Source: Gammaproteobacteria bacterium
GTDB taxonomy: Bacteria > Pseudomonadota > Gammaproteobacteria > S012-40
Length of the DNA: 35,229 nucleotides
Reading direction: 5' to 3'
Assembly (NCBI GenBank): GCA_029884425.1
Contig: JAOUHV010000032.1
Coordinates: 1-35,229, forward strand
Shown here: in pieces, positions 10,528 to 12,443 of the stretch
How the letters are laid out: each line of letters starts with the position of its first letter
Position numbering within the stretch: the first letter of the stretch is position 1
The notes under the pieces: generated by a model
Told to the model about the DNA's origin: nothing
What the model saw: only the letters and a program-made list of their open reading frames with translations
Databases searched by the model: none
Position numbers and translations under genes: made by a program

Positions 10528-10563
10528 TGAACCTCCATTCGCAGTTTGAGAATTCTGCGGTTA

Positions 10564-10593
10564 ATACTAGCACTCGATCTTCAATAGTGCCAA
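10564..10593 (-). promoter_or_regulatory. Sigma70-type promoter of rpoH with extended -10
   Basis: On the minus strand TTGGCA (10588-10593; 5 of 6) is followed after 18 bases by TAGTAT (10564-10569; 4 of 6), with TG one base upstream of it as an extended -10. Initiation near 10557 would leave a leader of about 30 bases. The second CIRCE copy covers exactly this interval. Confidence 0.65.
10567..10593. promoter_or_regulatory. Degenerate second CIRCE element over the rpoH promoter
   Basis: CTAGCACTC-N9-TAGTGCCAA matches the CIRCE consensus TTAGCACTC-N9-GAGTGCTAA at 15 of 18 positions with the correct nine-base spacer. It ends two bases before the perfect copy and spans the -35 to -10 region of the predicted rpoH promoter. 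Confidence 0.7.
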
Positions 10594-10595
10594 TT

Positions 10596-10622
10596 TTAGC
10601 ACTCAAGGCCTTTGAGTGCTAA
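10596..10622. promoter_or_regulatory. Perfect CIRCE operator (HrcA site) upstream of rpoH
   Basis: TTAGCACTC (10596-10604), a nine-base spacer, and GAGTGCTAA (10614-10622) form the exact consensus CIRCE palindrome bound by the HrcA repressor. It lies about 70-95 bases upstream of the rpoH start. No other gene start lies nearby: ftsX ends at 10715 on the same strand, so rpoH is the only plausible target. Confidence 0.95.
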
Positions 10623-10714
10623 TTCGGCCAAGAGTTCCGCTTGCTGAAGGCTGAATTTGCCGGGAAGAACTGGGTTTGAAAAGCCTAATTATTTTAATGG
10701 GTTAGCCTAAAAGG

Positions 10715-11782
10715 CTATAGGTCCAGTTCTTTCAGGTAGCGGTTGACCGCCATCCATGCGCCCCCCAGTCCCAGGGTGGCACCAATGGCCAGCACCGACA
10801 AAATATCGGAGATGCCCAGGCCGCGCAGGATGAAGCTGCTTTGGTACAGCTCTGCCAAGTGGTTGGCCGAGGGGGCGATCCAGGCGATGGCCAGGGTGAC
10901 CAGGAATATGGCCAGCAAGCTGCCGACCAGGCCATAAAACAGCCCGCTGTAGAGGAACGGGCGGCGGACAAAGGCATCAGTGGCGCCAACCAGTTTGTAG
11001 ACCTCGATTTCGGCGCGGTAGTTTTGGCTGAGCAGGCGAATGGTATTGCCCACCACCATCAGCACCGCGAACGTCAGGAACAGGCTGAGGAAGGTCGCGC
11101 TGCGCTGCAAAATGTCGATGATGCCAAACAGGCGTTCAATCCAGGCCATGTCCAGTTGTGCCATGTCGACCAGTGGCAGCTCACTGAGCTCGTCCCGTAG
11201 CTGCTGAATGCTGTTTTTATCCTGATCCAGGCGCGGCAAGACCACCAGCACATGCGGCAGGGGATTTTCGTCCAGGGTTTTGAGAGCCTCGGTGAAGCCG
11301 GACAGGCTTTCAAACTCGCTCAAGGCTTGTTCGCGGCTAATGTAGCTGACCTCGGCAATGTCGCTGCGGTCGCGCAGTTGCTGTTGCAGCGCCAGTGCCT
11401 GACCTTCGGTCGTTTGGCCTTTGAGGAACAGCGAAATCTGCGCGCTTTCTTCCAGGCCACTGCCCAGTTGCTGGGTGTTGGTGATCAACACTTGCAGTGC
11501 AGCAGGCAGCGATAAGGCTACGGCAATCACCAACACAGTCATCAGCGTGTGCAGCGGCGTGGCTTGCAGGCGCTGTCTGGCGCTGTGAATCGCCAGTTTG
11601 TGACTGGCCCAATAGCCCGTGCTGCCGCGAGGCAGGCGAGGCCCGCTGGCTTTGACCTTGGGCGGCTTGGGCCGGTTGGTGGCGGCTGGATTGGTTTTGG
11701 GGCGGCGCTCCGGAATGCCTTGTTTGGGGCTGCGATCCAGTGGGGTGGCACCGCGGCCACGATCCTGTTTTTTATCAAACAT
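10715..11782 (-). CDS. ftsX: Cell division ABC transporter permease FtsX
   Basis: A 355-residue membrane protein that, with FtsE, couples septal ring assembly to activation of peptidoglycan hydrolases. A basic, Pro/Arg/Lys-rich cytoplasmic tail of about 70 residues precedes the first membrane helix (TLMTVLVIAVALSLPAALQV). A periplasmic domain of about 100 residues, the EnvC-type activator-binding region in homologues, then three more helices follow. The ATG at 11782 gives an N-terminus of MFDKKQ and overlaps the end of ftsE by eight bases; a frame seven residues longer is possible but lies deeper inside ftsE. Confidence 0.95.
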   Translation of the reverse strand: MFDKKQDRGRGATPLDRSPKQGIPERRPKTNPAATNRPKPPKVKASGPRLPRGSTGYWASHKLAIHSARQRLQATPLHTLMTVLVIAVALSLPAALQVLITNTQQLGSGLEESAQISLFLKGQTTEGQALALQQQLRDRSDIAEVSYISREQALSEFESLSGFTEALKTLDENPLPHVLVVLPRLDQDKNSIQQLRDELSELPLVDMAQLDMAWIERLFGIIDILQRSATFLSLFLTFAVLMVVGNTIRLLSQNYRAEIEVYKLVGATDAFVRRPFLYSGLFYGLVGSLLAIFLVTLAIAWIAPSANHLAELYQSSFILRGLGISDILSVLAIGATLGLGGAWMAVNRYLKELDL

Positions 11783-12443
11783 GCCCGTGCTCCAGCAGTA
11801 CACCGTCGTTGATGATCAGGCGACGGTAGGGCAGGCTGTTGATCAGCTCGATGTCGTGGGTGGCGATCAGGGTGGTGACACCGACCTGTTTGAAGCGGAC
11901 GAACAAATCCATGATTTCCCGTGACAGTTCGGGGTCGAGGTTGCCGGTGGGCTCGTCGGCCAGCAGGACTTTGGGTTTGCCGACCACGGCGCGGGCGATG
12001 CCAACCCGTTGCTGTTCGCCGCCGGACAGAGCGATGGGTAGGGCATTTTCCTTGTGCAACAGGCCAACCTGATCCAGTGCAGCGCGTACACGCTTGCCGA
12101 TTTCGTCGTGGCTGTAGCTGCCACACACCTGTAGCGGCATGGCGACGTTGTGAAATACGCTGCGGTCGTTGAGCAGGGTCGGGCTCTGAAAAATAATGCC
12201 GATGCTGCGGCGGAAATAGGGGATGTCGCGCGCGCCCAATTGCGCCAGATTTTGTTCACCGACGACGATTTTGCCGCTGCTGGGACGCTCGATCAGCGCG
12301 ACCAGTTTCAATAAGGTGCTTTTGCCTGCGCCGGAATGGCCGGTGAGAAAAGCAATTTCACCGGTGGATAATTCAAACGTGATGTCCTTGAGCGCTTCCT
12401 GGCCGCTGGGGTAGCGCTTGCGTACGTGTTCAAAACTGATCAT
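11775..12443 (-). CDS. ftsE: Cell division ATP-binding protein FtsE
   Basis: A 222-residue ABC ATPase, the standard FtsE length. Walker A GHSGAGKST is at residues 35-43, the signature is LSGGEQQR, Walker B is VLLADEPTGNLD, and the switch histidine follows in IATHDIE. It binds FtsX and, through ATP hydrolysis, controls cell wall hydrolase activation at the septum. It starts five bases after the end of ftsY and overlaps ftsX, so ftsYEX are one transcription unit. Confidence 0.96.
   Translation of the reverse strand: MISFEHVRKRYPSGQEALKDITFELSTGEIAFLTGHSGAGKSTLLKLVALIERPSSGKIVVGEQNLAQLGARDIPYFRRSIGIIFQSPTLLNDRSVFHNVAMPLQVCGSYSHDEIGKRVRAALDQVGLLHKENALPIALSGGEQQRVGIARAVVGKPKVLLADEPTGNLDPELSREIMDLFVRFKQVGVTTLIATHDIELINSLPYRRLIINDGVLLEHGHV

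Follow-up and report, generated by a model that had tools for sequence, protein, structure and literature searches.

Why should rpoH, the gene for the heat-shock sigma factor sigma-32, be preceded by two copies of CIRCE, the operator of the repressor HrcA, set almost end to end? The question arises from a gammaproteobacterial contig of 35,229 nucleotides, analysed whole and called the window here, in which a first-pass annotation had described such a pair and proposed that HrcA represses rpoH, so joining two heat-shock circuits.

Two CIRCE elements and the predicted promoters beneath them

We searched the window for the CIRCE consensus TTAGCACTC-N9-GAGTGCTAA and used 100 dinucleotide shuffles as the null. 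Two matches were obtained against a shuffle mean of 0, and every coordinate of the annotated pair proved correct (Table 1). Two of the three mismatches of the proximal copy share one arm and, given these mismatches, its binding of HrcA may be weak. The copies lie 2 bp apart with their centres separated by 29 bp, and both are upstream of rpoH inside the 187-bp gap between ftsX and rpoH, in which no terminator-like site was found.

Table 1. Features of the ftsX-rpoH region, in window coordinates
Feature	Positions	Strand	Basis
rpoH (sigma-32), 283 aa	9676..10527	-	NCBIfam TIGR02392, 409 bits against a cut-off of 323
rpoH ribosome site	10532-10536		GGAGG
Predicted sigma-70 promoter on proximal CIRCE	10593-10564		TTGGCA-18-TAGTAT with TG
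Extended -10, overlapping the end of proximal CIRCE	10564..10572	-	TGC-TAGTAT; promoter scan; WAT flank conserved
Proximal CIRCE (predicted HrcA operator)	10567..10593	.	15/18; in rpoH sense TTGGCACTA-N9-GAGTGCTAG
Sigma-70-type -35 inside proximal CIRCE	10588..10593	-	TTGGCA; promoter scan; A-to-G at CIRCE position 3
Second possible sigma-70 promoter, on distal CIRCE	10593..10622	-	TTAGCA-18-TAAAAT with TG; promoter scan
Distal CIRCE (predicted HrcA operator)	10596..10622	.	perfect, 18/18, 0 mismatches
Predicted sigma-E promoter	10638-10611		GGAACTC-16-TCAAA
Sigma-E-type -10	10611..10615	-	TCAAA; inner TC of distal CIRCE plus three spacer bases
Sigma-E-type -35	10632..10638	-	GGAACTC; register conserved at rpoH-linked CIRCEs; pattern match 10611-10638
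ftsX, upstream neighbour, same direction as rpoH	10715..11803	-	TIGR00439, over cut-off

For sigma-70 extended -10 promoters we took -35 and -10 hexamers spaced 16-18 nt with TGN as the criterion. Two were found against 0.4 expected, one on each CIRCE and each with 9 of 12 matches plus the TG. The proximal one is the extended -10 promoter that had been predicted there. The distal CIRCE perhaps also covers a weak sigma-70 promoter, and because it scores as one, the two copies divide the promoters less cleanly in the window than in relatives. The distal copy also holds the -10 of a predicted sigma-E promoter, which fits the pattern GGAACTT-N16-TCNNA upstream of rpoH. In a pattern count across the genome the sigma-E motif alone was no commoner than its reversed control. 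Upstream of rpoE itself the sigma-E matches were weak only, with GGAACTT ahead of the gene in two family relatives (G001 and G002).

Both regulators are encoded in the window's genome (2.9 Mb, 98% complete). HrcA, which the first-pass annotation had invoked, is present elsewhere as one intact copy (PF01628, E 2e-64; 355 aa) followed by grpE, and rpoE was identified at C2:29079-29633 (TIGR02939, over cut-off). A genome-wide scan allowing up to 3 mismatches returned only one CIRCE outside the window, upstream of groES. Upstream of hrcA-grpE (L004) no CIRCE was found within 6 mismatches. Several family relatives, unlike the window's genome, carry a CIRCE ahead of hrcA, and autoregulation of HrcA seems, from the upstream sequence, to have been lost here.

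CIRCE and its register at rpoH across the class

We then asked how general the association is, taking Gammaproteobacteria in the GTDB sense, Burkholderiales included. Our class-wide sample comprised 58 genomes from 57 families, many of the assemblies being incomplete; hrcA was found in 41 and a CIRCE with at most one mismatch in 40. These CIRCEs were almost confined to the regions upstream of groES, rpoH and hrcA. A CIRCE preceded rpoH in 37 of 40 genomes with hrcA versus 1 of 15 without it (Fisher 2e-9, an indicative value, since the sites come from related genomes and the counts are not independent). In G022, G033 and G066 hrcA is present and rpoH has no CIRCE. In the named sample, CIRCE was observed at rpoH in Burkholderiales, Nitrosomonas, Dyella, Methylocaldum, Woeseiaceae and Pseudoalteromonas, and Vibrio, Shewanella and the enterics were without CIRCE. 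Because CIRCE at rpoH tracks hrcA in this way, control of rpoH by HrcA is very likely. The proposal of the first-pass annotation thus gains support from the co-occurrence, although not as an oddity: the counts and the named sample show that genomes with HrcA generally have an HrcA site at rpoH, the window's genome being a typical case, and among hrcA-bearing Gammaproteobacteria CIRCE is about as regular at rpoH as at groES.

A separate case is G025, which has a one-mismatch CIRCE at rpoH (L123 1501-1527) and no hrcA that we could find in a 97% complete genome; a relic, a missing contig or another regulator are the alternatives.

The position of CIRCE relative to promoter elements was compared for 87 rpoH-linked, 42 groES-linked and 16 hrcA-linked sites. 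A sigma-E -35 (GGAACTT, at least 6 of 7 matches) at -15 to -17 of CIRCE was present in 45 of the 87 at rpoH, 0 of 42 at groES and 0 of 16 at hrcA. It starts 16 bases ahead of CIRCE at rpoH, and a 16-base spacer puts the sigma-E -10 on CIRCE positions 8-9 (TC) and three bases of the CIRCE spacer. The final A of TCNNA was found at 41 of 43 rpoH-linked sites with the sigma-E -35 versus 17 of 44 without; since this A co-occurs with the -35, two separate elements travel together. The TGCTAA of CIRCE with a WAT flank forms an extended sigma-70 -10 (TGCTAAWAT) in 56 of 87 cases at rpoH versus 3 of 42 at groES. At position 3 an A-to-G change, which converts TTAGCA to the better -35 TTGGCA, occurred 26 times in the upstream arm and 0 times at the mirror position, a one-sidedness that contrasts with the symmetry of the HrcA site. 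The register at groES differs, a conserved CYTATnTA-like motif preceding CIRCE there. At rpoH, then, CIRCE is superposed on promoter elements, a point absent from the first-pass annotation. The perfect distal copy lying on a predicted sigma-E promoter means that three circuits would meet at rpoH, those of HrcA, sigma-E and sigma-32. The joining of two circuits proposed earlier is partly supported.

The E. coli ftsX-rpoH gap contains GAACTT-16-TCTGA, with the same spacing as the window's sigma-E elements, which we take to be the published promoter P3. The rpoH promoter P3 of E. coli depends on sigma-E (PMC8103513). From this element and the sigma-E dependence of P3, the most natural reading of the window's distal element is a P3 whose -10 is overlain by an HrcA operator; E. 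coli P3 exists without hrcA and without CIRCE, whereas its counterpart in the window has its -10 inside the predicted operator. Outside the enterics, SigE of Bordetella bronchiseptica transcribes its own fam (rpoH) promoter in vitro (PMC3490749), so that there too an RpoE-like factor reads rpoH, as proposed for the window; the passages of that report on fam transcription do not mention HrcA or CIRCE.

Tandem sites in the window's family

In all 10 family genomes with a readable rpoH this gene was preceded by one CIRCE or more, and 6 of the 10 (G000, G001, G002, G005, G006 and G008) had two; the tandem thus recurs in 5 family relatives besides the window. The strong site is distal and the weak site proximal in all six. 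A sigma-E -35 precedes the distal copy in every tandem (weakly in G005), and downstream of the proximal copy stands a sigma-70 -10, which in G001 and G002 is degenerate. The sigma-70 -10 flank of the distal copy is retained in the window and lost in the other five. The remaining arrangements include a single merged site (G010 and G011), a sigma-E promoter retained without the distal operator (G007) and a distal operator retained alone (G003). The RpoH tree resolved part of the family, with G006 and G011 left out, and placed the single-site G010 outside G008/G007 and G005/G003; a tandem ancestor followed by loss of one copy fits this resolved part. A second tandem at rpoH was found in another family (G019), where both copies are of the sigma-70 type.

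Centre distances in the family tandems were 29, 30, 30, 31, 32 and 32 bp, and 32 bp in G019, from few and partly related cases. Cooperative binding of HrcA is possible, being compatible with a spacing of 29-32 bp (about three helical turns), and the same distances may reflect the mere packing of two 27-bp sites. The Lactococcus lactis dnaK operon is described, in a paper citing the original work, as having two CIRCE elements that overlap the promoter (PMC1676014). As far as that description goes, it resembles the window in placing two CIRCEs over one promoter region but concerns a Gram-positive chaperone operon, the sigma-E and sigma-32 wiring belonging to the window only. Tandem CIRCEs were also observed at groES in G011 and G012 (L187 1200-1267 and L189 1174-1241), both copies imperfect, with a centre spacing of 41 bp (about four turns).

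A predicted HrcA gate on rpoH and competing readings

We propose that the pair represents two HrcA operators, each lying over an rpoH promoter (sigma-E distal, sigma-70 proximal) and gating both, a reading to which we assign a probability of roughly 0.77 on the sequence evidence. From the sequence, its register, its conservation and its co-occurrence with hrcA we infer HrcA binding, promoter use, feedback through GroEL and the logic of the circuit. HrcA loses activity when GroEL is busy, as is established for HrcA generally. In unstressed cells, GroEL-activated HrcA on both operators would exclude RNA polymerase. Misfolded protein occupying GroEL would leave HrcA inactive, and rpoH would be transcribed from the sigma-70 promoter; were envelope stress to coincide with inactive HrcA, transcription from the sigma-E promoter would be added, the sigma-E input being effective only once HrcA is released. 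Transcripts begun at the sigma-E start may also be blocked in elongation at the proximal operator. Sigma-32 would raise GroEL and so restore HrcA, closing the loop. Most likely, then, HrcA gates both promoters and rpoH would fire strongly only with GroEL overloaded and HrcA released. Most relatives would use one CIRCE for both promoters, and the window's family mostly two, giving each promoter its own lock.

It could be argued that HrcA has its operator in the distal CIRCE only and that the proximal copy is a promoter that resembles CIRCE through its overlap with TTGGCA and TGCTAAWAT, or a decaying duplicate. None of the family tandems, indeed, has a perfect proximal copy, and conservation in these copies is highest in the -35 and -10. 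At the six positions outside these elements, however, the weak proximal sites match CIRCE in 29 of 36 cases against 9 expected, even though identity across their 9-base spacer has fallen to 38%, and this retention makes the operator function look maintained. Together with a downstream trio GAG kept in 17 of 18 cases and a proximal copy in G006 that has one mismatch only, it renders this reading improbable. That the repeats act chiefly through stem-loop structures in the leader of the rpoH RNA, affecting stability or translation, is very improbable indeed. A CIRCE hairpin can form, and either read-through from ftsX or a start at the distal promoter would transcribe it; but the presence of CIRCE follows hrcA, its conserved register is with promoter elements, and RNA initiated at about 10557, where the sigma-70 promoter is predicted to start transcription, would contain neither repeat, since both lie further upstream; all this counts against a leader function.

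A further possibility is that HrcA binds but rpoH is controlled mainly by translation and turnover, as in E. coli, the operators trimming the basal level. Control at the level of the RpoH protein is ancient, which counts in favour of this view, and E. coli and other relatives without hrcA cope without CIRCE. Operators on the rpoH promoter are nevertheless kept in nearly every hrcA-bearing genome sampled, and such retention argues for a useful effect; we consider a mere trimming role unlikely, though well worth bearing in mind.

The two-operator gate may derive from a simpler one. We lean somewhat towards the view that across hrcA-bearing Beta- and Gammaproteobacteria the 27-bp palindrome at rpoH serves at once as HrcA operator, sigma-70 promoter and sigma-E -10, and that this gate is ancestral. 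If so, envelope stress and basal transcription would reach sigma-32 only beyond the capacity of cytosolic GroEL, E. coli would have lost the gate together with HrcA, and in the window's family it would have been duplicated and split, making sigma-E and sigma-70 transcription separately releasable. Textbook control of rpoH derives from E. coli, a bacterium without HrcA. Should an operator on the promoter be usual where both systems exist, HrcA would stand above sigma-32 and not beside it, and whether sigma-E acts on rpoH would depend on the folding state of the cytosol. The family with two CIRCEs, with its relatives missing one or the other copy, offers a natural series for testing the HrcA gate.

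A precedent exists in Geobacter sulfurreducens, in which a perfect CIRCE at -51 to rpoH led to a prediction of HrcA control (Rodionov et al. 2004, PMC545781). The passage concerned describes, as in the window, an upstream CIRCE and predicted HrcA control of a heat-shock sigma gene, but in one deltaproteobacterium and with a single site in place of a tandem, and it mentions no sigma-E overlap at rpoH (PMC545781). A single CIRCE at rpoH had accordingly been predicted for Geobacter in 2004, and the promoter register and the split tandem are added here. Within the collection of papers searched, our literature search on CIRCE and rpoH in beta- and gammaproteobacterial taxa found nothing beyond Geobacter. 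Permina and Gelfand reportedly surveyed the same taxa in 2003 and may already list rpoH among CIRCE targets.

Two further observations concern the HrcA regulon in individual genomes. In G066, where rpoH (L223) is without CIRCE, perfect CIRCEs lie upstream of genes named by sequence only as an Hsp20-type small heat-shock protein (L165 1200-1226) and clpB (L166 1170-1196); judging from these sites, targets of the sigma-32 type seem to have come under direct HrcA control. Upstream of rpoH at L049, L079, L092 and L221, in Lysobacteraceae and others, we noted operator variants in which G replaces C at position 7 and/or the mirror position. The variant is symmetric in L079 (TTAGCAGTC-N9-GACTGCTAA), and such changes may point to an altered specificity of HrcA.
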